Positions 11,098-36,222 of a stretch of DNA of 37,672 nt are shown here, in pieces. Under the pieces are notes generated by a model. That model worked only from the letters and a program-made list of their open reading frames with translations, was not told where the DNA came from and ran no database searches. Position 1 is the stretch's first letter. Every line of letters begins with the position of its first letter. Source of the DNA: a virus; IMG/VR virus record IMGVR_UViG_3300031707_000077, positions 1 to 37,672 of that record; one strand, 5' to 3'. Position numbers and translations under genes: made by a program.

Positions 11098-11402
11098 TGC
11101 TTCTCCTCACGGTGAACCAGCACCCACCCGATAGCGAACAGCTCGATCGCCACGCCCGCTCCGAGGGCGCGTACCCAGAGGTGCGGATTCCGATCGCCGC
11201 CGATCGCGTACATGCCGCCCCCGATGAGCGCCGATCGGAGGAGCGTGTGCCCACTGGCTCGCCAGAACGCGCCCGGTTTGCCTTCGACGAGATCGATCGC
11301 TGAGCGGCTGGACGGCAGCTCCCTCGGATCAGTAGGTGGGGAGACCGCAGCGACTCCGAACCCGACGCCCGGGACGCCGTTGAGGGATAGCTGCTCGTTC
11401 AC
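11094..11402 (-). CDS. GFG-tagged two-pass membrane protein
   Basis: A 102-residue protein with GTG start coupled to the upstream stop (GTGA). It begins MNEQLSLNGVPGVGFG, nearly identical over the first 16 residues to the DUF333 gene product downstream. Two hydrophobic stretches (LLRSALIGGGMYAIGG and VAIELFAIGWVLV) predict two passes, ending in the charged tail HREEKQ. No enzyme motif is visible. Confidence 0.74.
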   Translation of the reverse strand: MNEQLSLNGVPGVGFGVAAVSPPTDPRELPSSRSAIDLVEGKPGAFWRASGHTLLRSALIGGGMYAIGGDRNPHLWVRALGAGVAIELFAIGWVLVHREEKQ

Positions 11403-20845: not shown

Positions 20846-22117
20846 ATGGCCAACAGAAGCATCACGGGTCGGAAAATGATGAAGTACGGCGATTCGCAGG
20901 AGAAGGTCCGGCGAGTTCCGTTCGGTCTCGGAGCGGCTCCGGGCACGCCGGGCGCCGCGGAGAAGTGTCTCCGCTGCTCGTTCGGGAACATCCCGGTCAT
21001 CGAGGAGGTCGTCTGGACGATCCCTCTCCCGCTGACGTCTGATGAGGCGCTCGCGACCCTCGGTGACACGGTGAACCTGCTCTCGGGCAGCTCCAGCGTG
21101 CCCGGTGTGGCGTCGATCGACTCGACGTTCCTCATCAACGGCATCCTCCAGACGGACATCCTCTCGCAGGGGATCGGCGTCCACGTCTTCTGCGAACCGA
21201 TGACGTTCTCGACGATCGGCAACGCCTTCACGGCGCCAGGCACGCCTCCGGTGCAGACCCCTCCTTCGCCGGACGTGTTCACGTCGAACGACGTCTTCGC
21301 TGGCGCTCTCGGTGCGCAGTTCCAGGTCGGCGGCTCGGGAGCAACGATCACTCCCGCCGTGTTCGAGTTCGGATCCCCCGCGTGGCGCGCGGGATGGAAC
21401 TTCATCAACGCCTACCAGTTCCAGTGGAAGACCTCGCAGCGCGAGCTCGTCCTCAACGAACTGGCGGCGGACGTGTCGTACTTCGGCTCCTTCGCGGACG
21501 CCGAGGCGGCCGGCACCTCGGAAATCGCCATCATCGAGTTCGTCGCCGCGGTCAACGCGACGTACCGCTCGAAGGGCTCAGCGACGATCTTCCTGCCGAT
21601 CAGCTTCCGGCGTGTGGGAAGCGTCACCCCCCTCCTCAACGTCGGTGTCTTCCACCCGACGCGCGACTTCGACCTCGCCCCGGTCACCTGGGGTGGTCTC
21701 CGGTGGCAGGGCTACGGCTGCCGCGGTCAGATGTACCGGCCGATCGAGAGCCCGTGCTTCCTTGAGCGCGGTATCCCCATCGGGATGCTCTTCGTCGTGC
21801 AGGACGCCGTCCACCAGGCGCAGATGCTCGAAGCAGTCACGATCAACAACGATCCGTTCGGCTCCAACATCTCGCCGGACGAGAACCTGCCGTGCCTGAC
21901 GACGTTCGGCGTGCTCGACCCCAACGTCATGCTCGAGCAGACGCTCGACGCGGTGCCAGTGCTCGCGTCGCAGCAGGTCAACGTCTGTCGCCAGACCTTC
22001 AAGGGCGGCATCCTGAAGCTCGCCATCAAGATCAAGGGCTGGGAGATGCCCGGTGGCTGGAAGGCGTATTGCTCCGCCAACCTGCCGCAGATCATGGCGT
22101 CGTCCACGGCGCCCTGA
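20846..22117 (+). CDS. Putative major capsid protein (423 residues)
   Basis: Start ATG at 20846 with AGGAGA at 20832-20837; upstream in-frame codons look non-coding. The protein is beta-rich with many Pro/Gly turns and almost no long charged helices (VWTIPLPLT, IGVHVFCEPMTF, ATIFLPISFRRVGS, MLFVVQDAVHQ, LKLAIKIKGW). Size and composition suit a double jelly-roll coat protein, but fold is not provable by eye. Support is contextual: it has its own leader, a terminator-like hairpin follows, and structural genes come next. It could also be a spike or another particle protein. I see no HK97-type features. Confidence 0.72.
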   Translation: MANRSITGRKMMKYGDSQEKVRRVPFGLGAAPGTPGAAEKCLRCSFGNIPVIEEVVWTIPLPLTSDEALATLGDTVNLLSGSSSVPGVASIDSTFLINGILQTDILSQGIGVHVFCEPMTFSTIGNAFTAPGTPPVQTPPSPDVFTSNDVFAGALGAQFQVGGSGATITPAVFEFGSPAWRAGWNFINAYQFQWKTSQRELVLNELAADVSYFGSFADAEAAGTSEIAIIEFVAAVNATYRSKGSATIFLPISFRRVGSVTPLLNVGVFHPTRDFDLAPVTWGGLRWQGYGCRGQMYRPIESPCFLERGIPIGMLFVVQDAVHQAQMLEAVTINNDPFGSNISPDENLPCLTTFGVLDPNVMLEQTLDAVPVLASQQVNVCRQTFKGGILKLAIKIKGWEMPGGWKAYCSANLPQIMASSTAP

Positions 22118-22216: not shown

Positions 22217-22819
22217 ATGCAGCCGCGTGACACTCAGATCCGCAATCTCGCTTTGTACGCCCCGAAGACTGCCTTCGGGATGATGGTCGGCGTGCCGCGT
22301 GTGCCGTTCGTCGCGGACATCCCGATCCAGTTCTCATCGAGCACGGTGAACGCGCCACCGGTCGTGCAGAGTCTTCAGAACAACCTGTCGCAGGATACGG
22401 TCATCGAGCGCATCTCGTACAACCTGTTCCAGCAGAACACCTTCCCCGGATCGCCCTTCCAGAGCACGTACTTCAACCAGTTGAAGCAGAGCGGACAGAT
22501 CGGCGTCGGTATCCAGATGGCCGTCTACGGCGGCCCCAAGTACAACGTGAACGACACGTTCACCGATCTTGGCAATCTCGCCGACGTGTTCGCGGTGACC
22601 TGGCCCGAGGGCTGGCCGCTCCAGAAGCAGAGCAACGTGAAGATCAGCGCGATCCTCACGCAGACGCCGGTGAGCGTCCCTTTCAACATCACTTTGACCT
22701 TCCTCGGGTGGCAGTTCCTTTCGAAGGATCTGGACGATCTATCGGACGAAGAAGCACGTTCGCGGCTTCGCAAGCTCGGCATCGAGACGCCGGATCTCAG
22801 CATTCTGCTCAAGCCGTGA
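22217..22819 (+). CDS. Beta-rich structural protein, small capsid candidate (200 residues)
   Basis: The ribosome site GAGGAG lies about 9 bases upstream. After a short N-terminus the sequence alternates strands and loops (IPIQFSSSTV, VIERISYNLFQQN, IGVGIQMAVYGG, SNVKISAILTQTPVS, FNITLTFLGWQFL), as in a single jelly roll, then ends with a charged helix (DEEARSRLRKLGI). It lies between the 423- and 300-residue candidates. The 200 + 300 residue pair recalls the two single-jelly-roll coat proteins of P23-77-like viruses, but sequence similarity cannot be checked here. Confidence 0.72.
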   Translation: MQPRDTQIRNLALYAPKTAFGMMVGVPRVPFVADIPIQFSSSTVNAPPVVQSLQNNLSQDTVIERISYNLFQQNTFPGSPFQSTYFNQLKQSGQIGVGIQMAVYGGPKYNVNDTFTDLGNLADVFAVTWPEGWPLQKQSNVKISAILTQTPVSVPFNITLTFLGWQFLSKDLDDLSDEEARSRLRKLGIETPDLSILLKP

Positions 22820-22823
22820 ACTG

Positions 22824-23726
22824 ATGACCTCCCGCTCCGACAACGTGATCCGTCTCCAACGCGCCGCTGGCGGCGTGGCGACGAATCTGCGCTCGGTGCT
22901 CGACAACGGCCGGAACGAGATCGTCACCAACGGCCCGAGTCCCGAGTTCGGGTTCATCGGGAGCGATCCGTACAACACGAACGCCTACACGGGGCTCGTC
23001 GTACCTGCGACGCCGAGCTCCGCCATCGGCGGCGCGCGCTACCTCTTCCTTCTCGCGCGTCAGAGCTTCAGCACCAGTGAGCAGAGCGCGAGCAATCGCG
23101 GCGTACGCCTCGTCGGCATCCGGCAGTACGCCGAGCTTGTCGCGAGGATCCCCGCAGGTACGGCGCCGCTCGCGAGTCAGGGCGGACCGCCAGTCGGCAG
23201 CACGGTCACGCTCCACAAGGAGATCGAGAGCCCGCTCTGGCACCCGCCGGATGGCGACATCTCCTGGCACGTGATGATCATCAACAAGGTGCAGCGCGAC
23301 ACGCGCAATCCGGCGAACACCGACGGATTCCTCTTCCAAGACGCGCTCTCCCCCGCGCTCCTCTATCAGACCGGAGCGCCAAGCGGCGCCGGGTACGCGC
23401 CACCAAACGGAGGCCGTCCGTGGGGCACGCCCATCGGAGCGAGTCTCGGAAACATCCACGAGTTGCGCTACCCTTGGCGCACCGCCTACAGCGAAAGCGT
23501 GCTCGACATCCCGATCCCGGTGCCGTGCGATGTTGCGCTCTTCGCGAGCGTCCGGCAGAACAATCCCGCCCTCAACCCGACGCTCGCTGACCCGCTGTTG
23601 ACGCCTCAGTTCGTCGCACTCTCCAAGGAAGATCAGTTCCTCGTCGCGTACAGCGCGTTCGCGCAGTACGGCGTGATCGCGGGCTCGCTCGTCTTCGATC
23701 AGAACCTCGGGGAGGACGTACCATGA
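22824..23726 (+). CDS. Beta-rich structural protein (300 residues)
   Basis: It starts four bases after the previous stop with no strong ribosome site, so it is probably coupled. Strands such as ARYLFLLARQSF, VRLVGIRQYAELVA, GDISWHVMIINKV and PCDVALFASVRQN suggest a beta-sandwich coat or vertex protein. No signal peptide, membrane helix or enzymatic motif is visible. The stop overlaps the next start (ATGA). Confidence 0.72.
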   Translation: MTSRSDNVIRLQRAAGGVATNLRSVLDNGRNEIVTNGPSPEFGFIGSDPYNTNAYTGLVVPATPSSAIGGARYLFLLARQSFSTSEQSASNRGVRLVGIRQYAELVARIPAGTAPLASQGGPPVGSTVTLHKEIESPLWHPPDGDISWHVMIINKVQRDTRNPANTDGFLFQDALSPALLYQTGAPSGAGYAPPNGGRPWGTPIGASLGNIHELRYPWRTAYSESVLDIPIPVPCDVALFASVRQNNPALNPTLADPLLTPQFVALSKEDQFLVAYSAFAQYGVIAGSLVFDQNLGEDVP

Positions 23727-24511
23727 GCGCATTGTTCGGTGGCGTCGGCGTTCCGGGCCAGCACGCGACCCTGGCTCGTCCGGATGTGACGCTCGCTCGG
23801 AACATCCTGAGCCCCACGCCGGCGCAAGCGAACGGCCATCCAAATTTCGTCACGGACGTTCCCGTCCAAGGCCCGACCGATCAAGGCATGCGCGAAGCCT
23901 CCTGCTGGTTCGCGCAGAACCGACTACCTGCACATCCAGCGTGCGTCGATTGCAAAGGACCGATTCCCATGTGGGCACAGAGCAAAGGACTTCTTGGAAA
24001 CGAGTGGGGTTCACTGGGCGGCGTGCGCGCTCCCGGATTCGCACTCGAGGCGCCAGGCGACCCCGAGGTCTGGACGAAGCTCACAGACGCTCAGCGAGCG
24101 TGGGTGGCGAACGTGTTCAACAGGCTCAACGGGCTGATCCTCAAAGGAGGTAGCTCACCGTGCCCGACATGGAAGCCGGCGCCGTCAGCCGAGGCGGGCG
24201 CCTGTATCCAGCGCTGGTTCAACTCGACCTACGCCAATCGCCCCCCGGCCGGCATCAAGATGCCGCTTCGAACCGACGGCGTCTTCGATCAGGATACGTT
24301 CTGGGCGACCATGAAGATCATCGAGGACAACTCGAAGGACTTCCCGGAGCCGTGGCCAGGATCGCCGGGAGCCATCGAAGCGGAAAAGTCAAAGGGCCTC
24401 TCCGCTGGCGCGATGACGGGTATTGCCGTCGTGGGCGCAGCGGCCATCGGAGGAATCATCTACGTCGCCACGAGCGGCAAGACTCGGCGCAAGGCCGGAA
24501 AGAGGAAGTAA
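23723..24511 (+). CDS. Virion-type protein with C-terminal membrane anchor and basic tail
   Basis: A 262-residue protein. The middle has Cys pairs (CVDC, SPCPTW, GACIQRWF) and MPLRTDGVFDQDTFWATMKII, which resembles the core of a peptidoglycan-binding domain (TDGVFGPxT). GLSAGAMTGIAVVGAAAIGG begins a membrane helix at about 225, followed by GKTRRKAGKRK. The same GhSxxA anchor is used by the proteins at 17260 and 24511. I infer a membrane-anchored wall-binding protein with its basic tail on the nucleic-acid side. TAATG couples it to the next gene. Confidence 0.75.
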   Translation: MSALFGGVGVPGQHATLARPDVTLARNILSPTPAQANGHPNFVTDVPVQGPTDQGMREASCWFAQNRLPAHPACVDCKGPIPMWAQSKGLLGNEWGSLGGVRAPGFALEAPGDPEVWTKLTDAQRAWVANVFNRLNGLILKGGSSPCPTWKPAPSAEAGACIQRWFNSTYANRPPAGIKMPLRTDGVFDQDTFWATMKIIEDNSKDFPEPWPGSPGAIEAEKSKGLSAGAMTGIAVVGAAAIGGIIYVATSGKTRRKAGKRK

Positions 24512-26307
24512 TGTTGCTCTACAAGACTCAGCCAGGCGATAGCCCGGCTCTCATCGCACGCAAACTGGGCACTTCGACGGAGGCTCTCCTCGCCGCCAAT
24601 CCGTACAAGCCAACCACGATCGTTGCAGGCCAGCCCACTTGGCAGAGCTTGCACTTCGACGAGGTTTTGAACGTACCGGCAGGCATCGGCGTGCTTGGGA
24701 CGCTCGGAGCAACGTGCACGCCGGCCGCTCGCAACGCGCCGCACGCGCTCATCAAGAGAGGCAGCTCCGGACCCGACGTCGGGCTTTGGCAGACAATTCT
24801 CGGCGTCTCAGTGGACTGCTCGTTCGGGCCGAATACCGAGACCGCGACGCGCGCGTGGCAGAAATCTCACGGTCTTTCCGTGGATGGCGTCGTCGGGACG
24901 AACACGTGGGCCGCAGCGCTCGGTGGTGCGGTTGCGCCTCCGTCGCCTCCGCCCGACGCAGGTCGACAGTCGGTGCTGGACGCAGCCGCGAGAGACACGG
25001 CCGCCGTAGCGGTTGCGGCGCTCATGTCCAACCCGAACTACTGCGCACCCGGCGCAATGGTCAACACGCCAGTCGGCAATGCGGTGCACAACTTCAAGGC
25101 GGCCTGGAACGCGGCCAATCCGAGCAAGTTGGTGCCTATCGGCACCGGTAAGTACGAAGTCAGCGTCGCTACTGCGCTCTCAGCGGCCTTCGGCGGTCGA
25201 GCCGTTCCTCCGGGCTGCGGCGCGGCGGCTCCTCTACCCTCTACTCCGCCTTCGTCGAGCCTCACAGCGGCGGCCGACATCGCGATCAACGCGCTCAACG
25301 CGACCCCGAACTACTGCGCGCCAGGTAAGATGGTCGGTACGTCGGTCGGCAATGCGGTGCACAACTTCAAGGCCGCATGGAACTCGGCCAATCCAGGGAG
25401 CCCTGTGCCCATCAACACCGGTAAGTACGAAGTCAGCGTCGCCGCAGCGCTCACTTCGGTGCTCGGCACTCAGGCGCCGCCGGGCTGCGGTGGCGGTGGC
25501 GGAACCACGCCAGGTGGCGGCGGCGGAACCACGCCGGGCGGTGGCGGAGGAACCACGCCAGGTGGCGGTGGCGGAACCAAGCCAGGAGCGACGTGCACGC
25601 CGGCCGCCCGCAACGCGCCGCACGCATTCATCAAGAGAGGCAGCTCCGGACCCGACGTCGGGCTCTGGCAGACGATTCTCGGCGTCTCGGTGGACTGCTC
25701 GTTCGGGCCGAATACCGAGACCGCGACGCGCGCGTGGCAGAAATCGCACGGCCTTTCCGTGGATGGCGCGGTCGGGACGAACACGTGGGCCGCAGCTCTC
25801 GATGGTGCGTCTCCTCCGCCGCCGCCGCCTCCTCCGCCGCCCCCGCCGCCGCCGCCCCCGCCGCCGCCGCCCCCGTCGGGAGTTTGTCCGCCAGGTTCGA
25901 TGCGCAACCCCGCAACGGGGCAGTGCGAAGCCTTATCTCCTCCTCCTCCTCCTCCTCCTCCGCCTCCTCCGGGGAAGGTCTGTCCGCCGGGTCAGACGTT
26001 CAACGCCGCCACAGGCCAGTGCGAGGCGGGAGCGTCTCCGCCCCCGGGGCAGCAGTGCCCCGTCGGTCAGACGTTCAACCCCGCCACAGGGAAGTGCGAA
26101 GGTGGCGGCACTGCGCTCACGACGCCCGAGGACAAGGGCATCAGCACCGGCGCGATCGTTGTCGGAGCTCTCGGAGCGGCGGCGCTCGTCGGGCTGATCG
26201 CTGTCGCGGCGTCGGGCAAAAAGGCGCCAGCGCGTCGCGGTACGCGCGGCAAGCCGGGCAAGCAGGGCAAACGCGGGCCGGCGAAGCGCAAGAAGTCGAA
26301 GAGGTAG
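24511..26307 (+). CDS. Multi-domain LysM and peptidoglycan-binding membrane protein
   Basis: A 598-residue protein. Order: LysM (1-50, YKTQPGDSPALIARKLGTS), peptidoglycan-binding domain A (68-140, RGSSGPDVGLWQTILG), YC domains at 173-236 and 264-326, Gly/Thr linker, peptidoglycan-binding domain B (361-433), poly-Pro, three CPxGxxxNxATGxCE repeats, a membrane helix starting GISTGAIVVGA (about 543), then a 30-residue Lys/Arg/Gly tail. No catalytic residues of known lysozymes are obvious, so binding or wall alignment is the safer reading. Likely a long spike anchored in a particle membrane. It is the most elaborate protein in the window. Confidence 0.82.
   Translation: MLLYKTQPGDSPALIARKLGTSTEALLAANPYKPTTIVAGQPTWQSLHFDEVLNVPAGIGVLGTLGATCTPAARNAPHALIKRGSSGPDVGLWQTILGVSVDCSFGPNTETATRAWQKSHGLSVDGVVGTNTWAAALGGAVAPPSPPPDAGRQSVLDAAARDTAAVAVAALMSNPNYCAPGAMVNTPVGNAVHNFKAAWNAANPSKLVPIGTGKYEVSVATALSAAFGGRAVPPGCGAAAPLPSTPPSSSLTAAADIAINALNATPNYCAPGKMVGTSVGNAVHNFKAAWNSANPGSPVPINTGKYEVSVAAALTSVLGTQAPPGCGGGGGTTPGGGGGTTPGGGGGTTPGGGGGTKPGATCTPAARNAPHAFIKRGSSGPDVGLWQTILGVSVDCSFGPNTETATRAWQKSHGLSVDGAVGTNTWAAALDGASPPPPPPPPPPPPPPPPPPPPPSGVCPPGSMRNPATGQCEALSPPPPPPPPPPPGKVCPPGQTFNAATGQCEAGASPPPGQQCPVGQTFNPATGKCEGGGTALTTPEDKGISTGAIVVGALGAAALVGLIAVAASGKKAPARRGTRGKPGKQGKRGPAKRKKSKR
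24712..24930 (+). repeat. 219-base internal duplication, copy A
   Basis: Encodes the first peptidoglycan-binding domain. Aligned by eye with 25591-25809, the two differ at about a dozen of 219 positions, mostly silent, so the duplication is recent or kept alike by gene conversion. Confidence 0.85.
25591..25809 (+). repeat. 219-base internal duplication, copy B
   Basis: Second copy of the peptidoglycan-binding domain, after the Gly/Thr linker and before the poly-Pro stretch. Same orientation and frame as copy A at 24712-24930. Confidence 0.85.
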
Positions 26308-26311
26308 AGGC

Positions 26312-26566
26312 ATGCGTATCGTCATCGACAAAGCGACTCTCAAGCGACACCGGGCTTGCAATAGATCCTGGGATCCAGGCGGCGGCATCGTCTCCCCTGA
26401 GTGGGATGCGGAGTTGCAAGCGCTCGTGTACGAGGATTGGTCCGCGACCGCCGAACGGCTGCTGTCCAGTCCTGCGGGCGTGGTCCAGCTCAGGTGGCTG
26501 GTCGATCACGAACTCGTGCCGATGACGGTCGCCGAGTTCGAGACAGCACGCGGAGGTTCCAAATGA
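26312..26566 (+). CDS. Small hypothetical protein
   Basis: An 84-residue protein with AGAGG upstream of the ATG. It is charged, Trp-containing and mostly helical (AELQALVYEDWSATAERLL, VVQLRWLVDHEL). No family recognised. Its end overlaps the next start as ATGA; it may be a chaperone or adaptor for the adhesin cluster, which is a guess from position. Confidence 0.68.
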   Translation: MRIVIDKATLKRHRACNRSWDPGGGIVSPEWDAELQALVYEDWSATAERLLSSPAGVVQLRWLVDHELVPMTVAEFETARGGSK

Positions 26567-27288
26567 GCGGTTTTCGAATCGGACGAAAGTCCGCGCAACA
26601 CTTCTACCCCGAGTCTTCGCGCGCTTCGGCGCTATCGCTGTTCGCGCGAAACTTCGCGACGGGACCGAAGTTCAGTACGGCGCTCGCTCCCGACGCTCAG
26701 ATCCCGTGGAACTCGATCGACGCCGATGTTCCGACGACGCCGTTCACGATCGCAGCGAATGGGATCACAGTATCCATCGCCGGAGACGTGACGGCTGCGT
26801 TCCAAAACTTCGACGACGTGACCGTCAAACCGACCGTACCGGCGTCGCTGACCGTTGTGTTCAGAACGATCGTGACCGTGCCCGTGTTCGCGCTCGGCTT
26901 CACGACGTTCGACATCAACGCGGCCATCGATCCCACAACCACGGCGGGTTTCATCAGCAGTTCGACCAGTGTGCCGATCACACCCAGGGTCACAGGGGTC
27001 GTTCGCGTGTCCGGCGTCGTCACGGTGAGTAACCCTACGGTCGCTCCGATCGACGTGGAAATAGGGGTTCAAGTCAACGGCGGCCCCACGCTCACCCCGG
27101 ACTCTGAGATTGCATCGCTCCTCCCCGGCGGGGTGATCACGATCCCTTTCCTCGTCGAGACAAGTCCGCTCGACACGCCGATCGGCGTGACCAGCAACAT
27201 CCAAGTCCTCGTGAGCGGAAACGGCGCGGCAGTAGTCGGGGACGGATCATCGATCGACGTGCAAGAGGTGTCGGTCGCAACCGGCTGA
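26563..27288 (+). CDS. Beta-sandwich virion protein with variant IGR tag
   Basis: A 241-residue protein. It begins MSGFRIGRKSAQHFYPESS, a diverged form of the IGRGRYAxxxYP tag. The rest is beta-rich (TVVFRTIVTVPVFALGF, ITPRVTGVVRVSGVVTV, SNIQVLVSGNG) and ends SIDVQEVSVATG. The last half resembles the protein at 27508 (ITPKVTGKFRVI to QIEVQEVF), so the two share a head domain, probably TNF/C1q-like. I infer a surface-exposed adhesin. Confidence 0.75.
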   Translation: MSGFRIGRKSAQHFYPESSRASALSLFARNFATGPKFSTALAPDAQIPWNSIDADVPTTPFTIAANGITVSIAGDVTAAFQNFDDVTVKPTVPASLTVVFRTIVTVPVFALGFTTFDINAAIDPTTTAGFISSSTSVPITPRVTGVVRVSGVVTVSNPTVAPIDVEIGVQVNGGPTLTPDSEIASLLPGGVITIPFLVETSPLDTPIGVTSNIQVLVSGNGAAVVGDGSSIDVQEVSVATG

Positions 27289-27314
27289 GCCGCAAGGCTG
27301 AAAGAGGCACTCCC

Positions 27315-27503
27315 ATGAAGATGATCCACCAGGAAACGATGTGTTGCGGGTACAAGAAGTGTCCGACGGTCAAGGTGTTCGACGACGGCTCCGTCGAACT
27401 CTCCGACGACGACGCGGAGATCGGATCGGTCGGCACGATCAAGATCCGTCCCGAGGCGGCAGCGCGGCTCATCGAGGTGCTGTCGAGCGCCCGGAAAGGG
27501 TGA
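27315..27503 (+). CDS. Small Cys-containing protein
   Basis: A 62-residue protein with AGAGG upstream. It opens MKMIHQETMCCGYKKCPTVKVF; Cys10, Cys11 and Cys16 may bind metal, then an acidic stretch and a helix follow. No family is known to me. It separates two related beta-sandwich proteins. Confidence 0.65.
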   Translation: MKMIHQETMCCGYKKCPTVKVFDDGSVELSDDDAEIGSVGTIKIRPEAAARLIEVLSSARKG

Positions 27504-27507
27504 TCAC

Positions 27508-27990
27508 GTGAGCGCCATCATCGGTCAAGGTCGGTATGCCCGTGAGACGTATCCTGCGCCGTCCGGCGGAGGAGCGGCAGCGGCACTCGCGCGCGAGTGG
27601 GCCGACAACCCGCAGGGAATACTCGTCGGCTCGGCCAACGGCACGACGCTCGCGTCAGTCACGATCACCCCGAAGGTCACTGGAAAGTTCCGCGTGATCA
27701 TCACGGGCGTGATTCTCTCCTCGCTCGCGAACCGCTTCACCTGCTGGGTGGGGCACGGCCCAGTCGATCCAGTGCCCGTGGACTACACGAGTGCCATCTA
27801 TCAGGTGCCCGTCGCGGTCAGCAACGACGGAGTCGGTTTCTCGCTCGTCGTCGATCTCGACAAGATCGCGGCTCCGTTCGTCTTCCCTGTTGGTGTTCCG
27901 GTTCGGATCGCTGTGGGCGGGGCCGGAAACCTAAACGGCTGCTCCATCTTAGCGAGCGGCGTCCAGATCGAAGTGCAGGAAGTGTTCTGA
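27508..27990 (+). CDS. IGRGRYA-tagged beta-sandwich protein
   Basis: A 160-residue protein from GTG with an AAGGG ribosome site. The N-terminus MSAIIGQGRYARETYP is the shared tag, followed by a short Gly/Ala linker. The remainder is one compact beta-sandwich (VTITPKVTGKFRVIITG, FSLVVDLDKIA, VPVRIAVGGAG, VQIEVQEVF), probably a TNF/C1q-like head. It shows the architecture in its simplest form: tag, linker, head. Confidence 0.8.
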   Translation: MSAIIGQGRYARETYPAPSGGGAAAALAREWADNPQGILVGSANGTTLASVTITPKVTGKFRVIITGVILSSLANRFTCWVGHGPVDPVPVDYTSAIYQVPVAVSNDGVGFSLVVDLDKIAAPFVFPVGVPVRIAVGGAGNLNGCSILASGVQIEVQEVF

Positions 27991-27997
27991 TCGGCTG

Positions 27998-28264
27998 ATG
28001 ATCTACGTCGCCCTCATCGGTCTGACGCTCATCATCGTGAGGGGCACCATCTTCCGTCCCGTCCGGCGGCTCTGGCCCGCGCTCCTTGAGTGCAGCCAGT
28101 GCACCGGCATGTGGGTCGGGATGACGGCCGGCGCGAGCGGCGTCGTCTCGACCGGTCACGGTCGCATCCTGGACACGGTCATCGTCGGAGCTGCGACGAG
28201 CTTCTTGTCGCTGCTGGCCGATGCTGTACTCTTGAATCTGCTCGGTCACCCCGAGGAAGGCTGA
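27998..28264 (+). CDS. Small membrane protein with CxxCxGMW motif
   Basis: An 88-residue protein. IYVALIGLTLIIV is an N-terminal hydrophobic helix; ECSQCTGMWVGM resembles the CxxCxGxW motif of DUF1360-type membrane proteins; VIVGAATSFLSLLADAVLL is a further segment. It sits inside the adhesin cluster without a tag, perhaps an assembly or holin-like factor. Confidence 0.65.
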   Translation: MIYVALIGLTLIIVRGTIFRPVRRLWPALLECSQCTGMWVGMTAGASGVVSTGHGRILDTVIVGAATSFLSLLADAVLLNLLGHPEEG

Positions 28265-28268
28265 TCCC

Positions 28269-28472
28269 ATGCGACGCAAGCTCAAGAATCTGAAGAACAA
28301 GTCTGGGCACTCGGAAAACGGAGCGCCTCGGCAGATGATCGACGAAGCGGTGTACCGCGAGCGCGCGTCGCTTGCGCGTTACGATAGCGAGTATTCGGGC
28401 TGGAGCCACGCTTCGCGTCCGCGGGATCAGGCCATCAGTCTGCGCAGTATGGGATCCGGGAGACCTCAGTAG
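28269..28472 (+). CDS. Small basic hypothetical protein
   Basis: A 67-residue protein with GGAAGG before the ATG. It starts MRRKLKNLKNKS and is basic and polar throughout, probably disordered or nucleic-acid binding. No family recognised. Only 14 bases separate it from the next start, with no clear ribosome site between. Confidence 0.6.
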   Translation: MRRKLKNLKNKSGHSENGAPRQMIDEAVYRERASLARYDSEYSGWSHASRPRDQAISLRSMGSGRPQ

Positions 28473-28486
28473 TTCTCCCGCCGCCG

Positions 28487-29461
28487 ATGCCGCCCGCGCT
28501 CGGACAAACGCTGCGCGACTACGACACCGACTCACTCGGCGTATCGAGATCGGCTTCCGTGGCGTGTCGAGACACGGCCCGATCGATGTTGCGCCCGCCA
28601 ACGCTGGCCCGCCTGTGCCCGAGCTCGCGCGCCGTCCGGATTCGGTTCGACCCGCCTAGCGGGTACGCGCCGATGAACCCGAGCGTTTGCTACCACAAAG
28701 GTGCACTGTGGTGCGTCGTGCGTGCGGTCAACTACTCGCTGGAAGGTCGGGAGTACGCCTCCCACGATCCGCACGGCGTCTTCCGCACAGAGAACTATCT
28801 GGGCCGTCTCGACCCGAACGGGGAGTTCATTGAGCCGCGACTTATGCGCGATCTCGACCCGTCACCAAAGTTTCTGTCGCGCCACGTCGGGTACGAAGAC
28901 GTGAGGTTGGTGTCGATCAAAGACACGTTGACCGCCAGCGCAAGCGTCGACGATCGAACCCCCGGCAAAAGTTGTCGCGTCGCCCGGCTCCACCTGGACG
29001 GGTTTGGTGACGTGACACGCGCTGATGTGCAGCCGAGCAATCAGCTCCACGAGAAGAACTGGATGCCGCTCTCGGTGAACGGAGAGTTCGCGTGGATCTA
29101 CTCGCTCGATCCGGTGGCGATCTTGCCGGGACCACTGCGGAGTTGTCCGCTCGCGCTGGATCACCTGCGCGGCGGGGCCGCGATCGACTTCGATGACGGC
29201 TACCTGTGCGTCACGCACGAAATCATCGAAGAGAGCGTCGGGCGGATTTACCTACACCGGTTCGTGCGCCTCGATAAGCGGTTTTGTGTGACTTCAGTCT
29301 CGCCGACTTGGGTCTTCGCGCGCCACGGTATCGAATTTTGCGCCGGGATCGCTCGCAACGAGGAGCAAGTCACGTTATCCTACGGCATTGCTGATCGAGA
29401 GGCATGGTTCACGCAGATCGATGCGAAAGAGATCAGAGCCATGGAGTGGATCACGCCATGA
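28487..29461 (+). CDS. Glycosidase-like beta-propeller protein (tentative)
   Basis: A 324-residue protein; the first 45 residues are low complexity, so the true start may be later (for example GTG or ATG near 28560-28680). NPSVCYHKGALWCVVRAVNYS, ENYLGRLD, GYEDVRLVSIKDTLTASASVD and LHEKNWMPLSVNGEFAWIYS follow the pattern of five-bladed propellers related to GH130/GH43-type enzymes (NPS, R-x-x-NY, ED-x-RL, EKNW). It could cut or bind surface glycans. It lies in the adhesin cluster, so a depolymerase-like role is an inference. ATGA links it to the mini-gene at 29458. Confidence 0.65.
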   Translation: MPPALGQTLRDYDTDSLGVSRSASVACRDTARSMLRPPTLARLCPSSRAVRIRFDPPSGYAPMNPSVCYHKGALWCVVRAVNYSLEGREYASHDPHGVFRTENYLGRLDPNGEFIEPRLMRDLDPSPKFLSRHVGYEDVRLVSIKDTLTASASVDDRTPGKSCRVARLHLDGFGDVTRADVQPSNQLHEKNWMPLSVNGEFAWIYSLDPVAILPGPLRSCPLALDHLRGGAAIDFDDGYLCVTHEIIEESVGRIYLHRFVRLDKRFCVTSVSPTWVFARHGIEFCAGIARNEEQVTLSYGIADREAWFTQIDAKEIRAMEWITP

Positions 29462-29544
29462 GCAGAATCATCGGTAATGGACGTTACGCCAGCGAAACGT
29501 ATACTCGTCGTCGTCGCGGGACTACTGAGAAGGAGACGCTGTGA
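29458..29544 (+). CDS. 28-residue stand-alone IGRGRYA tag peptide
   Basis: ATG at 29458 overlaps the previous stop (ATGA) and the frame ends in GTGA, overlapping the next start at 29541. It encodes MSRIIGNGRYASETYT followed by RRRRGTTEKETL. This is the full tag with no head domain behind it. AGAAGGAGA near its end is the ribosome site of the next gene. It may be a remnant of an adhesin gene that lost its head, a peptide that competes for docking sites, or a coupling leader. Confidence 0.55.
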   Translation: MSRIIGNGRYASETYTRRRRGTTEKETL

Positions 29545-30629
29545 GCACCGTCATCGGACGTGGGCGGTACGCGCGCAGCACGTACCCTGAAAGGTCGAAC
29601 GGCGGCAACAGCGTGTTGCCGTTCGAGGCCGTGTTCGGCAATGGTGCCGACGGCGCGATCGTCACTCCACCAGGCGTCGTCGCGTCACTCGGCGGCAACT
29701 TCACGACCTTCACGCTCAGCGCCGGCACGACGCTCAAACCGCCACCTGGGCGCAACCTCATCATCATCCGCGCGACCGAGCGGATCGTGCTCGATGGCAA
29801 GATCGACGCAAGCGGCGCCACGGCGTTCGCGACGAGTGGCATGGTCTGGTACGGCTCAAACCCTCCTGCGTTCGGCGGCGGAGGCGGCGGCGGAGGCGGC
29901 TCCGCGACCAATCCTGCCAATTTCTTCGACGGCGGCGACGGCGGCGGCGGCGGCCCGATAATCGGGTTCACGCCTGCGTCGTTCGGCAACCAAGGGAACA
30001 ACGGCTCCCCGGGGAACATCGGTTTCCCCGGTGGCCCCGGCGGCGCCGCATCACCCTCGAGTCCCGGCGCAGCCGATCCTACGTTCGCACAGCAGGTCGC
30101 GCTCTGGCTCTCGCCGATCATCTTCGCGGGCGGAGCGCCTGGATCCAACGGTATCCAGGGGTCACAGGGCGGGACAGGCGCCCCCGACACCGGCAACGGG
30201 GGCAATCCCGGAAACGGAGGAAACGGCGGCGTTGGCGGCGACGGCGGGGGGCTCATCTTCCTCATCGCACCGAGCATCGTCTTCGGCGCAGCGTGTGAGT
30301 TGCACACGGACGGAACGATCGGCACCGCCGGTGTCGCCGGATCGCCTGGAGGCGACGCACCAGCCGCCTCAAACGGCGGCGGAGGCGGAGCTGGCGGCGG
30401 CGGGGGTGGCGGGGGCGGCGGATGCGGCGGCATCATCATCGCGCGCGCCGGCACGTTCTCTGGCTCCCCACTCGCTGCCACGGCGGTCGGAGGAGCCGGA
30501 GGTGCGCTCGGCGCAGGAGGTGCGCCTGGCGGCGCCCTCGATGGTACCGGCCAAAATGGCGGTGTCGGTGGAGACGGCGCTACCGGCCCGACAGGAACGA
30601 CGGGTCTCGTTCTCTTCTCACCGATCTGA
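29541..30629 (+). CDS. IGRGRYA-tagged glycine-rich adhesin
   Basis: A 362-residue protein starting MSTVIGRGRYARSTYP. A beta-strand region (FTTFTLSAGTTL, RNLIIIRATERIVLDGKID) precedes long Gly-rich blocks (GGGGGGGGG, NGGNPGNGGNGGVGGDGG), interrupted by IIFAGG and LIFLIAPSIVFG strands. Alternating Gly-rich and beta stretches recall the polyglycine-sandwich adhesin of T-even phages (gp38), where Gly-rich helices pack side by side. I infer a receptor-binding tip. Confidence 0.8.
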   Translation: MSTVIGRGRYARSTYPERSNGGNSVLPFEAVFGNGADGAIVTPPGVVASLGGNFTTFTLSAGTTLKPPPGRNLIIIRATERIVLDGKIDASGATAFATSGMVWYGSNPPAFGGGGGGGGGSATNPANFFDGGDGGGGGPIIGFTPASFGNQGNNGSPGNIGFPGGPGGAASPSSPGAADPTFAQQVALWLSPIIFAGGAPGSNGIQGSQGGTGAPDTGNGGNPGNGGNGGVGGDGGGLIFLIAPSIVFGAACELHTDGTIGTAGVAGSPGGDAPAASNGGGGGAGGGGGGGGGGCGGIIIARAGTFSGSPLAATAVGGAGGALGAGGAPGGALDGTGQNGGVGGDGATGPTGTTGLVLFSPI

Positions 30630-30645
30630 AGATCGAGATGAGATC

Positions 30646-32337
30646 ATGTTCGTAATAGGTCGAGGGAGATACGCCAAAGCGGTCTATCCGCAAGCGCCGC
30701 GCGTGACCCCGGACGACCACAAGGTCGCGGTCACTGCCGTCGATCCGACGCCGGACTTCCTCGCCGCGAAGGTCACTGCGGGTCCCGGTATCTCTCTCGC
30801 AGTGTTGCCGGGACAGCAGTTGGAGATCACGGCGACGGCCGTGTCGGAGGACCACAAGGTCCAGGTCACGGCGGCGGACACGACACCTGGGTTCCTGGAC
30901 GCGAAGATCGCTGCCGGCACGAACGTCGTGAAGACGGTCCTGTTCCCCGCCGGGAACGAGCAGGTCGAGCTCTCCGTTCCGAGCGCCGCACCGAGCGGGG
31001 CGGCCGGTGGCGATCTAGCCGGCACGTACCCGAACCCGAGCGTCGTGGCGCTCACCGAGGCGGGAGGCCCGACGTCGCTGCCGATCAGCGCAATCGCGAA
31101 CGGACAACTGTTTATCCGCATCGGTGGGATCGTCGTCGGGATCTCTCCGAGCGGGCTCTACCCGGTCCCCGACAACGTCTTCTCGGTCAACGACAACGTC
31201 GATCCGACAAAGTTCCTGAACATCGAGCTTGCAGGTCAGGCCGCAGGCACCACTCAGACGATCGTCACGACGGCCACCATCTCGCGTCCGTTCCGTCTTC
31301 CGGACATCAGCGGCACTGCCGTCGTCATGCAGGACGTGACGGGGCAAGTCTTCATCGGCATCGGCGTGACCGGCACCCTGCACGGCTCGAACGCCGGCAT
31401 CCAGTATTCGAGCACGACGGCGAATCGTGGCGCTGTTCGCGTCAACCAGTACGGGGCGAACGTCGGTGTCCCTGGGTTCGTCGGATTCAAGTCTCGCGGC
31501 GCGACCATCGGTTCTACCGCGTCCGTGATTGCTGGTGACGTGCTGTGGCGCGGCACCGCCATCGGTGTCACCGGGGACAACGTGAGCGTCCCGAACGCAG
31601 CCTTCATCTCCATCGTGGTAGCCGCGGGCGGACCTACGGCTGCGCAGTGCCCGTGCCAGTACGAACTGGAACTGACGAACCTGGCTGGCGCGCGCCAGCT
31701 TGCTTTCAAGGTCACCACCGAAGGCGAGGCGCAGACGTTGCGCGGAGTGCGCGCCGGAGGCCCGGCAACGCTCCCTGCTGCTCTAGGGGCAGGAACGCTC
31801 TGGTCGAGCGGGACAGGCAGTCCAGAGACCGTCATCACGGGCTCCCCCGGCGACCTATGGAGCCGAACGGACGGAGGTAGCTCGACCACGCTCTACGTGA
31901 AGGAGAGCGGCGTCGCAACGAACACCGGCTGGATCCCGGTCCAGTCGGCTGGAGTCGCCAGGAACGTACTCTTCTGGGGCGCTGGCACCCTCGCTCTCAC
32001 TGCGGTGACACGCTTCCTGCGTCCTGGCTACCAGAGCGGGCTCGCTCCGACGACCAGTGTTCGCATGCCCATCACGCGAGCGGGCACGCTGCAACGGTTG
32101 TTCGTTCGCTGTCGCGTCGCTGGAGCAGGGGTGAACAACATCACCTACACCGTGCTCCTGAACGGAGTGGCCACTACGCTTGCCGTGTCCATGCTGCCGA
32201 CTGCCGTGTCCGCGTCGAACATCGCGAACACCGTGGCCGTGGTTGCCGGAGACTTCGTCGAGCTTCAGGTCACGAAGGCTGGCGTCATTGTCACGACGCC
32301 GACCGATGTAGAAGTAGCCTTTGAGGAGGCCGCCTAA
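30646..32337 (+). CDS. IGRGRYA-tagged phage fibre protein
   Basis: A 563-residue protein starting MFVIGRGRYAKAVYP. Two copies of a fibre repeat follow (DDHKVAVTAVDPTPDFLAAKV and EDHKVQVTAADTTPGFLDAKI), then GGDLAGTYPNPSVVALT, a very common fibre motif. Downstream are triple-beta-helix-like stretches (IQYSSTTANRGAVRVNQYG) and a C-terminal beta-sandwich (SVRMPITRAGTLQRLFV to TPTDVEVAFEEAA). The end is probably the binding head. The start has only a weak ribosome site. It is the longest tagged protein. Confidence 0.83.
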   Translation: MFVIGRGRYAKAVYPQAPRVTPDDHKVAVTAVDPTPDFLAAKVTAGPGISLAVLPGQQLEITATAVSEDHKVQVTAADTTPGFLDAKIAAGTNVVKTVLFPAGNEQVELSVPSAAPSGAAGGDLAGTYPNPSVVALTEAGGPTSLPISAIANGQLFIRIGGIVVGISPSGLYPVPDNVFSVNDNVDPTKFLNIELAGQAAGTTQTIVTTATISRPFRLPDISGTAVVMQDVTGQVFIGIGVTGTLHGSNAGIQYSSTTANRGAVRVNQYGANVGVPGFVGFKSRGATIGSTASVIAGDVLWRGTAIGVTGDNVSVPNAAFISIVVAAGGPTAAQCPCQYELELTNLAGARQLAFKVTTEGEAQTLRGVRAGGPATLPAALGAGTLWSSGTGSPETVITGSPGDLWSRTDGGSSTTLYVKESGVATNTGWIPVQSAGVARNVLFWGAGTLALTAVTRFLRPGYQSGLAPTTSVRMPITRAGTLQRLFVRCRVAGAGVNNITYTVLLNGVATTLAVSMLPTAVSASNIANTVAVVAGDFVELQVTKAGVIVTTPTDVEVAFEEAA

Positions 32338-33377
32338 TGGGAACGCATCGCTTTCAACTGGACAGCATCAACGCGACCGAGGTCGGCAATCTCTCCGAGC
32401 CGGGGCTCGTAGCGACCACGCTTGCTGCGCGTCCGCAGATCGACGTCACGCTCGCGAACGATGCGTTCCTGCCCGATCTGACCGAGGCGATGGCTCAGTT
32501 CGGGTACTCGTTCGTCGCAAGCGCCCCCACGACCCCCAGGGTCACGTCGAACCTCCTGGTGGACATGAGCGACCCGGGAGCGACCACCACCGTTGCTCCA
32601 GCCGGCACGATCCGCCAGCGGTACGACAACACTCAGAAGGCGCTCCTCGTGTCCGTGGACGGCGGGGCGTTCTACCCGCTCGGGGTGCCCCCCCCGAACG
32701 GGGCGAGCTTCTTTGACGACTTCCTCACCATCAACGGGACGGTTATCGGGAACGGTTGGACCGCAGCCACGAGCGGCGCGGGCAGCGCCGTCACCGTCGG
32801 CTCCGGTGTACCCGGCAACGTGATGCTCACCGGAGCCCGCCAGGGGATCCTGTCCTTGGCCTCCGGGACGACAGCCACCGGGCGAGCGAGTGCCAGGCAG
32901 GCACAAGCATACTCCAACCTGGCCGCCACCGGAGGAAACAGCCGCCTTGAGTGGCTGACGGCGATGGCCGACCCGTTGGCAACCGTAGCCGAGGACTACA
33001 CCTACTTCTGCGGGTACTCCGACAGTATCGGTGGCGCCGGCTTCGGAACTCAAGCGGTCCTGTTCGCGCACATCAGAGCGGTCAGCGCGACCAACTGGAT
33101 CGCCCGCACCGTGGTCGGCGGCGTCCCGACCGACATCGTGACGGCAATCCCGATCTCGGCCGCCGGCACCTTCGACAAACTCCTCATCGACATCTCTCCC
33201 GTCATCGGTATCCGGTTCTTCGTGAACGGCGTACTCGCAGCGACGCAAGTAACGATGCCGATCGCGAGCGTGGTGTACACTCCGATCACGAAGATAGAGA
33301 AGCTCGCCGGCATCACGACCCGACGAGTGAACATGGACTACGCATCTTGGAGCTACCGACTCTCCGTGGCGAGGTAA
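32337..33377 (+). CDS. Fibre or lectin-like virion protein
   Basis: A 346-residue protein, TAATG-coupled. No IGR tag; it opens MGTHRFQLDSINATEVGN and has LVATTLAARPQIDVTLAND, a motif seen in phage fibre proteins. The C-terminal 200 residues (FFDDFLTINGTVIGNGWTA to MDYASWSYRLSVAR, with TFDKLLIDISP and IRFFVNGVL) look like a concanavalin A-like jelly roll, as in LamG lectin domains. Glycan binding on the host surface is a reasonable inference. Confidence 0.75.
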   Translation: MGTHRFQLDSINATEVGNLSEPGLVATTLAARPQIDVTLANDAFLPDLTEAMAQFGYSFVASAPTTPRVTSNLLVDMSDPGATTTVAPAGTIRQRYDNTQKALLVSVDGGAFYPLGVPPPNGASFFDDFLTINGTVIGNGWTAATSGAGSAVTVGSGVPGNVMLTGARQGILSLASGTTATGRASARQAQAYSNLAATGGNSRLEWLTAMADPLATVAEDYTYFCGYSDSIGGAGFGTQAVLFAHIRAVSATNWIARTVVGGVPTDIVTAIPISAAGTFDKLLIDISPVIGIRFFVNGVLAATQVTMPIASVVYTPITKIEKLAGITTRRVNMDYASWSYRLSVAR

Positions 33378-33380
33378 CCA

Positions 33381-33686
33381 ATGTCGTTCGTTTATGTTTC
33401 TGCGATCAAACTCAAGGCCGATGGCACGACGATCAACTCCGACAACTGCACAGGCGCTCGCACGAGTCTGGGCAAGTACCGAATCGATCTCGGGACGGAC
33501 ATGAGCGAGGAAGAAGCGATGTTCGTTGTCCAACCCGCGAACGGCAATGTCACCGACTGGGTGATCTCAAGCCAGAAGCTCCTCCCCGACGGGAGCACCG
33601 TCGAGATCGATTTCGCCACAGTCGCGGTGTTCCCCACTGACTCGGCGTTCAACTTCATCGCCTACAAGTTCCAGGCAGGCCCATGA
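33381..33686 (+). CDS. Small beta-sandwich protein (paralogue 1)
   Basis: A 101-residue protein with GAGGTAA just upstream. VYVSAIKLKADGTTINSDN, GKYRIDLG and FNFIAYKFQAG outline a small TNF/C1q-like or fibre-head sandwich. The next gene has the same length and strand order (DAAGVILASSNVVG, GIYHVQMV, FDLIVWRFVP). No tag. It is coupled to its paralogue by ATGA. Confidence 0.7.
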   Translation: MSFVYVSAIKLKADGTTINSDNCTGARTSLGKYRIDLGTDMSEEEAMFVVQPANGNVTDWVISSQKLLPDGSTVEIDFATVAVFPTDSAFNFIAYKFQAGP

Positions 33687-33994
33687 TCACGCTCTGGGCT
33701 GCGTGCAAGTGCGATGCGGCGGGCGTCATCCTCGCCTCCTCGAACGTCGTCGGCGTAGCCGTGATGGGCGCGGGCATCTACCACGTTCAGATGGTGAACG
33801 AACTCGGCCCGTACGAGTGCAGCGCGGGGGCGGTGCCGTGGTACGTCGAGCCGAGCGCCGTACCGCTGGTCCGATTCGTGTGCGGCGTCGATCCGGCTTT
33901 CCCTGATCGCATCATCGTGAACGGGTTCGCCGGGATCCCACCAGTAGCCTCCCCCGGGCCGTTCGACCTCATCGTCTGGCGGTTCGTGCCATGA
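33683..33994 (+). CDS. Small beta-sandwich protein (paralogue 2)
   Basis: A 103-residue protein with ATGA overlap at both ends. It aligns by eye with the 101-residue protein before it at the first strand pair, the GxYxV strand and the final FxxIxxRF strand, but has diverged, with CKCDAAG and four Cys in total. The pair may form a hetero-oligomer or offer alternative binding heads. Confidence 0.7.
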   Translation: MITLWAACKCDAAGVILASSNVVGVAVMGAGIYHVQMVNELGPYECSAGAVPWYVEPSAVPLVRFVCGVDPAFPDRIIVNGFAGIPPVASPGPFDLIVWRFVP

Positions 33995-35034
33995 GCCGCA
34001 TCATTGGACGAGGGCGATACGCGAGCGAGACGTACCCGATCAGCCCAGGTGTAGGCGGAGGCGGGGGCGGGGGCGGGGGAAACACTCTGGTCTTTCGTCC
34101 TGGTGGTGTGACCTCCGGGAACGTTTACGCAACATGGCCCGCGCTGGTTGTTGCGGCGTTCGCAACTCAGGGGCCAAAGAACGTCGCCATCGACACGAGT
34201 TTCGCCGCAGCGGTGGTTCCGGCGGGCGCTTGGAACCTTGGGACTGAGGCGAGCATCGTCGGTAGCGCGGGGACGTCCCCGACACCGCTCTCCATTGCCC
34301 CTGGAGCGACTCTGGTCGGAGTGGTTGACGTTGTAGATGTAGCGGTCACGACGAACGGCGCTACTCCGACGATTCTGAATACCAACGCGGCGACTCAGTT
34401 TTTCTATCTGAGTGGCACCACGACGGTCACCTGCTCTGGCGCCGGTCCTTTCCTGCGCCAGACGGTCGCAGCGCCATTCACGCTCTATGTGAGAGGGCTT
34501 GCAGCAGTGAACGCTGGCGCATCGCCGGTACTCGACACGCTCATCGCCGGCACGACGCTCGGAGTCGTTGCGCTCGACGCGGGGTTCATCGACGCAGGTG
34601 TCGTCGCTGGCCCGGCGGGCGGGACGTATTACGGAGTGATCGGCAACGCGGCTGCGTTCGTTGATCCGTCGCAACCGGGCGTTCCAGGCGGAGTGATCCC
34701 GATCGCGAACTGGGAGCAGTCGAAATACGTCCAGTATGACGACACGCTCGCGCCGCCCGTGCTCGGAGCGAACACGGTGCAGGGCGCGATCGATGCGCTC
34801 AAGGCGCTGCCCGGGCCTCCGTATCAGACGGACGAGTTCGTGGCCGCCGCAGCGCAGACGTTCTTCGTACTGTCCTTCTTGCCCATCGACATTCCCAACA
34901 TGGAAGTGTTCGTCAACGGTGTGCGCTACAACCTCGGATCAAGCTACACGGTGGCCGCGTTAATTCTGACATGGCTCAACTCGCCGTTCGTTATGTCGGC
35001 AGGTGACAACGTGATTGTCACTTACCAAAGATAG
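33991..35034 (+). CDS. IGRGRYA-tagged fibre protein with poly-Gly hinge
   Basis: A 347-residue protein starting MSRIIGRGRYASETYP, then a pure Gly hinge (GVGGGGGGGGG), then a beta-helix-like region (VTSGNVYATWPALVVAAF, ASIVGSAG, GATLVGVVDVVDV) and a common fibre end (NTVQGAIDALKALPG, NMEVFVNGVRYNLGSSYTV, SAGDNVIVTYQR). The first 16 residues differ from the mini-peptide at 29458 only at the N of GNGR and the last residue. Confidence 0.83.
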   Translation: MSRIIGRGRYASETYPISPGVGGGGGGGGGNTLVFRPGGVTSGNVYATWPALVVAAFATQGPKNVAIDTSFAAAVVPAGAWNLGTEASIVGSAGTSPTPLSIAPGATLVGVVDVVDVAVTTNGATPTILNTNAATQFFYLSGTTTVTCSGAGPFLRQTVAAPFTLYVRGLAAVNAGASPVLDTLIAGTTLGVVALDAGFIDAGVVAGPAGGTYYGVIGNAAAFVDPSQPGVPGGVIPIANWEQSKYVQYDDTLAPPVLGANTVQGAIDALKALPGPPYQTDEFVAAAAQTFFVLSFLPIDIPNMEVFVNGVRYNLGSSYTVAALILTWLNSPFVMSAGDNVIVTYQR

Positions 35035-35043
35035 GAAATCCCA

Positions 35044-36222
35044 ATGAGCACACTGATCAAAGGCAAGCAAGTCGATGTGGCGCCAAACGGTATCGCCACC
35101 GCCAATATCAACTCTGGAGCGGTGACGGACGCTAAGGTAGACGCGACCGTGCTGGTGGCCAGCGGTGCGAACCCGCTGACAGGGAATCTCCCGGCGGGAG
35201 GATTCAAGATCACAGGGCTCGGGACTCCTACTGCCCCCGCAGACTCGGCGACGAAGGCGTATGTAGACGCTTTCGCGAACGGGCTGACGATCAAGGCTCC
35301 TGCGCTCGTCATGTCCACCGCAAACATCGCGGCGCTCACTGGAGAGCAGACAATCGATGGCGTTCTCACGAGCGCGTCTCGCGTACTGCTCACCGGACAG
35401 ACGACCGGATCTCAGAACGGTCTCTGGGTGACGGCCGCCGGCGCGTGGAGTCGCCCGTCAGACTTCGCGGCTGGATCTAGCGCAGAAGGCGCAGCGGTAT
35501 TCATCCGGCAAGGGACTCTCAACGCCGATTCGCAGTGGGTCTGCATAACCAACGCTCCCGCGGACATCGTGGACACGAACTCGCTGACGTTTGTGCAGTT
35601 CGCAGCTCCCGGGCTTACGACCTACACGAACGGGCTCGTCAAGACGGTCAACAATGTTGACGTTGTAGTCCCCGCCGGCTCTGGCGCGCTGACAGCAAGC
35701 CCCGGAGCTCTCTCGGTGAACTACGCTCTGGTCGGCGAACTCGCGGCGGTGGATGCTGGCGCCGCTGCGGCCGGTGTGGGTGAGAAGGTCACGCGCCAAG
35801 ATCACAAGCACACCATCACGACCGGCGCTCCCGTCAACGTCGGTGTCGCGAACTCTGCCGGTTCCGGCGTCGCGGTGGCGCTCGCGAACCACGTTCATGC
35901 CGTGCCAGTCAACACGACCGGCAACAAAAACATGGTCGCGAGTGTGACCGTCGCGGACAACGACGCTGCGACAGCGACGGTCGTGGCAAAGGCCAACGCG
36001 CTTGGAGGATACATCGCAGTATCCGTCAACGGTGTCGGTCCGTACTTGGTGGGAGACGGAACCAAGGTGGCGGTGGACTGCTACTTCTCGGGCGATGGTG
36101 GAGTCACGGCTCGCGCGCTGTCTGCCGTCGTTATCGGAGACACGCTGCGATGGAACGGAAGCGTTGCTGGGTTCCAGCTCGCAGCATCCGATCGCATTTC
36201 GCTGATGCAGGACGCATTCTAA
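35044..36222 (+). CDS. Phage tail-fibre-like protein with HxH motifs
   Basis: A 392-residue protein with AGGAAAT upstream. GGFKITGLGTPTAPADSATKAYVDAF is a hallmark of phage fibre proteins; GLTIKAPALVMSTANI, TIDGVLTSASRVLLTGQT and GLWVTAAGAWSRPSDF continue the pattern. Near the end RQDHKHTI and ANHVHAVP are two HxH motifs; in T4 long tail fibres HxH motifs bind metal along a trimer axis. No IGR tag, so its attachment must differ. I predict a trimeric receptor-binding fibre. Confidence 0.85.
   Translation: MSTLIKGKQVDVAPNGIATANINSGAVTDAKVDATVLVASGANPLTGNLPAGGFKITGLGTPTAPADSATKAYVDAFANGLTIKAPALVMSTANIAALTGEQTIDGVLTSASRVLLTGQTTGSQNGLWVTAAGAWSRPSDFAAGSSAEGAAVFIRQGTLNADSQWVCITNAPADIVDTNSLTFVQFAAPGLTTYTNGLVKTVNNVDVVVPAGSGALTASPGALSVNYALVGELAAVDAGAAAAGVGEKVTRQDHKHTITTGAPVNVGVANSAGSGVAVALANHVHAVPVNTTGNKNMVASVTVADNDAATATVVAKANALGGYIAVSVNGVGPYLVGDGTKVAVDCYFSGDGGVTARALSAVVIGDTLRWNGSVAGFQLAASDRISLMQDAF

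Follow-up and report, generated by a model that had tools for sequence, protein, structure and literature searches.

A short N-terminal peptide was common to otherwise different fiber proteins encoded in the stretch of viral DNA analyzed here (an IMG/VR virus record with a length of 37,672 bases and 64% GC, referred to as the window) and in the relatives of that virus. The best explanation for this tag, and one that we consider reasonably probable, was that it is an N-terminal docking peptide that fixes interchangeable fibers to a common site on the virion. The tag consensus was [IVL][IVA]G[RK]GRYAxETYP; it spanned about residues 3 to 16 of the protein and had a 13-residue core.

A preliminary description of this DNA had placed tagged N-termini at positions 26563, 27508, 29458, 29541, 30646, and 33991, and all six were present in the window sequence at these coordinates. 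A profile was made from the tags of 32 relatives, with the window's own copies excluded, and this profile recovered the five main window tags at E values of 2.4e-11 to 1.3e-6. In the six-frame search, the matches were at 33991, 29458, 29544, 27511, and 30646 (29544 and 27511 are codon 2 of the 29541 and 27508 genes, respectively), and the best E value beyond the five main tags was 0.53. When up to two mismatches were allowed, a degenerate DNA pattern matched the window seven times, compared to 0.65 ± 0.80 times in shuffled sequences; five of the seven matches were exact, and every exact match was a true tag. Among the called proteins, 62 of 63 profile matches began within the first 6 residues, and the single exception arose because the start of the 30646 gene had been called incorrectly. 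The tag regions had no match in Pfam or PHROG and no sequence match in the PDB, and we found no paper describing the motif, in agreement with the earlier statement that no described family contained it.

All six tagged reading frames were located on the plus strand. The first gene (26563 to 27288), which had a strong GGAGG upstream of its ATG, encoded a 241-residue fiber protein that opened with MSGFRIGRKSAQHFYP (26563 to 26610), a tag of the EF subtype, and carried a head of family A6. The second gene (27508 to 27990) encoded a 160-residue fiber protein with the main tag, MSAIIGQGRYARETYP (27508 to 27555). Its head was homologous to that of the 26563 product; thus, the claim that the heads differed completely needed to be corrected for this pair, although the heads were diverse overall. 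The 29458 frame (29458 to 29544; MSRIIGNGRYASETYT) had been described as an adhesin, which was wrong because this 28-codon ORF consisted of the tag and 12 residues. It overlapped the stop of the preceding gene and the start of the next gene and was possibly the remnant of a fiber that had lost its head. The remaining genes encoded a 362-residue fiber protein with a Gly-rich head (29541 to 30629; MSTVIGRGRYARSTYP at 29541 to 29588), a 563-residue fiber protein with repeats followed by a C-terminal domain (30646 to 32337; MFVIGRGRYAKAVYP at 30646 to 30690), and a 347-residue fiber protein with a poly-Gly hinge (33991 to 35034; MSRIIGRGRYASETYP at 33991 to 34038). The 30646 product had a weak internal match to PHROG_28023, and residues 30 to 87 of the 33991 product matched PHROG_5596, which is annotated as unknown function. 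A fiber-like protein without the tag was encoded next to the tagged genes (35044 to 36222) and matched PHROG_2647 ("head decoration") at an E value of 1.7e-27.

In IMG/VR, the tag was confined to contigs of one clade, about 30 in number, with a common capsid-gene block. Eighteen stretches of DNA were found when the tag DNA pattern was searched across 2.9 million IMG/VR contigs, and an independent IMG/VR search with the 423-residue 20846 product yielded 29 contigs; most of the 18 stretches fell in contigs that were also found with the 20846 product. Many clade genes were also present in the two tag-bearing contigs in which the coat gene was absent (G007 and G008) and in L205, whose tag was found with a second pattern. 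The preliminary description had named a wide occurrence in cellular proteins without adhesin heads as a result that would speak against docking. GTDB species genomes yielded nine tag-pattern matches, all of which were chance matches to short ORFs or to internal positions in longer frames, so no such wide occurrence was seen, and the best match in cultured phage records was a 45% match at an E value of 6. Similarly, searches of 50,697 phage records and 72,556 plasmid records found no match to the 20846 product, and GTDB genomes contained no relative. Because of this clade-only distribution, the tag is a clade marker. Most of the 32 records searched with the profile, which included the window, contained one to eight main-type tags, and up to about ten tagged, otherwise different fiber proteins were found per genome. 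The tag genes were mostly located downstream of the conserved coat block, and some were located elsewhere in the genome.

Three plus-strand genes of the virion block encoded coat candidates, each of which is a possible socket for the tag. The 20846 product (20846 to 22117; alignment A3) was the most conserved virion-block protein, with family members in 25 contigs, and is the candidate major coat protein. Its structure model was unreliable (pLDDT 54), and the Foldseek matches, to papillomavirus L1 at a TM score of about 0.1, were rejected as unusable. The second candidate, a 200-residue protein (22217 to 22819), was modeled as a jelly roll (pLDDT 81). The longest good match of this model was the coat protein VP4 of Sulfolobus polyhedral virus 1 (SPV1), which aligned over 145 residues at a Z score of 6.9, less than Z 8; other viral jelly rolls had Z scores of 5.6 to 6.8, non-viral beta-sandwiches scored as high, and Foldseek yielded no match in the PDB at an E value of ≤0.001. 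The third candidate was a conserved 300-residue protein (22824 to 23726) with family members in 24 contigs; a P23-77-like pairing of 200- and 300-residue coat proteins was considered for the 22217 and 22824 products on the basis of size alone, and the fold search spoke neither for nor against it. Comparisons of the three coat-candidate alignments with PDB sequences yielded nothing meaningful. Directly before the 20846 gene was a gene (18945 to 20699) whose product was extremely rich in Lys and Arg, contained a hydrophobic segment, and may condense DNA at a membrane.

The likeliest particle was tailless and probably membrane-containing, a reading based on genes that were not found and on matches that fell short of the usual confidence limits. 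The portal (PF04860) and HK97 capsid (PF05065) profiles found nothing in 23 contigs, including ten with repeated ends, in searches whose controls were detected. The terminase profile phrog_2 produced one weak match in the same 23 contigs; this match, in G005, overlapped a gene resembling a P-loop helicase and was set aside. A HerA-type ATPase (PF01935) was matched in 6 of the 23 contigs, with five matches over the cut-off, and was not found in the rest; the HerA_C match in one contig had an E value of 1.3e-11. At the C-terminus of several virion-block proteins, a membrane helix preceded a basic tail. Direct repeats of 87 to 127 bases were located at or near the ends of ten contigs of 67 to 125 kb (G001, G002, G004, G009, G011, G013, G014, G015, G029, and G031), as in circular or complete assemblies, and these contigs may be complete genomes from a group of large tailless phages. 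The presence of LysM, PG_binding, and endolysin-type genes pointed to bacterial hosts. The jelly-roll-like coat candidate, the HerA-type ATPase of some genomes, and the C-terminal membrane anchors were reminiscent of Portogloboviridae SPV1 and the Halopanivirales. In contrast to these single-jelly-roll tailless viruses, to which there was no sequence similarity, the clade had end-redundant contigs of 67 to 125 kb, which to our knowledge is far larger than the known tailless viruses of prokaryotes.

In the docking model that we propose, residues 3 to 15 of each fiber protein would fit, in linear form, into a conserved pocket of a virion protein that is itself conserved across the clade. The tag would be followed by a flexible Gly/Pro/Ser/Thr or collagen-like stalk, and the stalk would carry at its end one of a large set of exchangeable heads for contact with the host surface. 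The computations showed the tag, its place at the N-terminus, its confinement to the clade, selection on the peptide, the variety of heads, and the occurrence of one head type with different tag subtypes, whereas we infer the virion location of the tagged proteins, the pocket binding, and the receptor binding by heads; with a common tag and exchangeable heads, different fibers and head-swapped descendants would fit equivalent sites on one particle. A mirror-tree analysis of tag distances and 15 conserved proteins revealed no clear partner, which counted against docking.

An alternative is that a maturation enzyme encoded by the virus recognizes or cleaves the tag, which would be removed or cross-linked at assembly. 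The conserved virion block contained two genes that would fit such a role, and their products are putative maturation enzymes. One was a RadC/JAB-like metalloprotease-type gene (13206 to 13688; PF04002, E value of 1.1e-24). The other (18036 to 18698, plus strand) encoded a conserved 220-residue protein that appeared transglutaminase-like by eye, with Cys, His, and Asp in the expected order. The 18036 family was present in 22 contigs, and 2 of 115 core-family representatives matched Transglut_core; the 18036 copy had no Pfam match, so the assignment is tentative and the product is a possible maturation enzyme. Among the families with full data, the 18036 family was also the one most strongly correlated with tag distance (partial correlation of 0.29; P of 0.05 before correction for 15 tests). 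However, the conserved stretch comprised 13 residues with constant spacing at the very N-terminus, where cleavage would remove almost nothing, and we consider processing to be unlikely.

To compare the heads, we used 97 tag proteins from 24 contigs, which were gathered by motif and cleaned by hand. When the tag and collagen-like runs were masked and 95 heads were compared via BLAST, 48 clusters were obtained, 38 of which were singletons. Pfam matches among the heads included collagen (21 of 96) as well as pectate-lyase-like, right-handed beta-helix, ice-binding-like, CBM_5_12, and Gly-rich domains. Head domains of this kind are common in phage fibers and depolymerases, and the predicted types were compatible with receptor binding or degradation. 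Homologous heads (alignment A6) were found on EF-type, GRYA-type, and GRYA-plus-collagen proteins, and this occurrence behind different tag subtypes appeared to reflect head exchange. Some tag proteins had as few as 28, 54, 77, and 83 residues, which counted against the docking reading. Collagen-like or Gly-rich stretches came after many tags, as might be expected if the tag were a folding or trimerization cap that nucleates a trimeric fiber instead of docking it. This idea is quite unlikely, since only 26 of the 97 tag proteins had collagen-like repeats and the remainder had the same tag in front of unrelated heads.

The tag itself occurred in more than one form. The 26563 tag had been described as diverged; it was indeed homologous to the main tag, with which the EF subtype aligned over its full length (hhalign score of 19.3, compared to 12.9 for the best unrelated family), but it was more than a degraded copy. 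It belonged to a subtype (EFRIGRxxAxHxYP or EFVGRTGxxxYSYP) that was conserved in at least 11 genomes, and one head type was located on both subtypes (26563, EF type; 27508, main type). In G021 (81 kb), which lacked GRYA, four fiber genes opened with I[AL]G[IL]KN[KR]SPxTY[EP] variants, and other variants ending in YP were found in G027, G031, G019, and G029. Both GRYA and GLKGRSPETYP types were present in G013, with identical spacing. A docking code that drifts with its putative socket would be expected to look like these variants. The existence of at least two subtypes could mean that there are two sites, and we counted it against docking at a single site. The docking-code reading of the preliminary description was partly supported: a conserved, clade-specific N-terminal tag that is selected as a peptide and carries interchangeable fiber-type heads was confirmed, whereas presence on particles and the use of one kind of site by all tags are predictions of that reading.

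By eye, the tag (RIIGRGRYA) resembled the N-terminal arm of the 20846 coat family (SIIGRKxxxKFG; general form IxG[RK]...[KR][YF]G), and it could be imagined to mimic this arm and insert at the arm position. In a profile comparison, the arm was not above background (9th of 61 families, 5 aligned columns, probability of 0.6%), and the coat proteins of G004, G010, and G028 lacked IIG, yet these genomes kept the usual tag. Hence, coat-arm mimicry was not supported and is very improbable.

To examine selection on the tag, we used 72 tags of fixed spacing, in which G3 and Y12 were invariant by construction of the set. Positions R6, G5, Y7, A8, E10, T11, and P13 were strongly preferred. Tag pairs in the same genome had 69% peptide identity, and the codons of their identical residues differed in 52.6% of cases, compared to 53.4% expected from codon usage. 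The peptide was kept while the codons were randomized, indicating that selection acts on the amino acid sequence. The tag is an element of long standing at the peptide level, and neither recent duplication nor a signal in the nucleic acid accounts for it. Tandem fiber genes, the apparent head exchange, and the leftover 28-codon tag ORF in the window would fit a recombination hot spot or recent duplication in which the 5' end is kept as DNA for head swapping and has no peptide function, but the full randomization of synonymous positions ruled out a recent duplication or DNA element and made this scenario extremely improbable.

Next to the tag-based tests, we compared all non-homologous protein pairs within each genome without bias, using N-terminal 26-mers, C-termini, and mid-protein windows. 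Strongly similar N-terminal 26-mers were found in 142 of 82,480 same-genome pairs, whereas strong similarity was found in 23 of 78,921 C-terminal pairs and in 2 of 80,545 pairs of mid-protein windows. The N-terminal groups were the GRYA tag, a GGRPVxGFGLG tag, and LysM-type starts, and the C-terminal group consisted mostly of membrane helices with basic tails. A wider reading, which we put forward tentatively as a serious possibility, is that these contigs represent an undescribed clade of large (67 to 125 kb), tailless, membrane-containing bacterial viruses in which terminal peptide tags act as an assembly code. IGRGRYAxETYP would plug up to about ten fibers into a common coat socket, and GGRPVxGFGLG and the C-terminal membrane-anchor tail would route other proteins elsewhere on the virion.

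The principle of a conserved attachment end with an exchangeable head is already known. Modular receptor-binding proteins of tailed phages, such as Klebsiella phages, have a conserved N-terminal anchor and horizontally exchanged heads, with several such proteins per phage. The tag proteins likewise joined a conserved N-terminus to unrelated C-terminal heads; however, tailed-phage anchors are domains that attach to the tail, and the profiles phrog_2, PF04860, and PF05065 indicated no tailed-phage hallmark here. In the adenovirus fiber, a conserved N-terminal FNPVYPY binds the penton base (PMC3457955). As in the tag proteins, a short N-terminal peptide with a Tyr-Pro core is located on a shaft and an exchangeable knob, and adenovirus is an icosahedral tailless virus, as the virus here may also be. 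The tag consensus differs from FNPVYPY, and the tag is used by many different proteins of a single genome, unlike in adenovirus; we compare the mode of action alone. The tectivirus P5 spike (PRD1 and PR772) also has an N-terminal attachment part, a collagen-like motif, and a C-terminal knob. In PR772 P5, these are an N-terminal base, the collagen-like motif, and the knob, and the penton-like domain through which P5 attaches comprises about 124 residues (PMC6750898). In contrast, the attachment part here was about 13 to 16 residues, followed by a linker or diverse heads, with no penton-like base. We claim neither the adenovirus fiber nor PR772 P5 as a homologue. Here, the attachment end comprised only some 13 residues, a single genome could use it on up to about ten different proteins, and it belonged to a group of viruses that has no cultivated member and in which the tailed-phage hallmark genes that we searched for were not detected. 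If the docking model is true, the tag would provide a minimal sequence rule for spotting fibers of this virus group in metagenomic data, a short peptide that could be used to find the socket, and a simple account of how host contact diversifies without rebuilding the particle.

A second, unrelated N-terminal tag, SLNGVPxVGFGxA, opened several neighboring small genes on the minus strand of the window (9720 to 11402). In relatives, this tag had the form GGRPVxGFGLG and was present in up to about six copies per genome, on proteins that varied in length, some with a membrane helix. In the 23723 to 26307 region and at C-termini in G009, G022, and G026, LysM/PG-binding and other virion-block proteins shared a C-terminal tail in which a basic stretch (e.g., YLATRKxRRR) came after a membrane helix.
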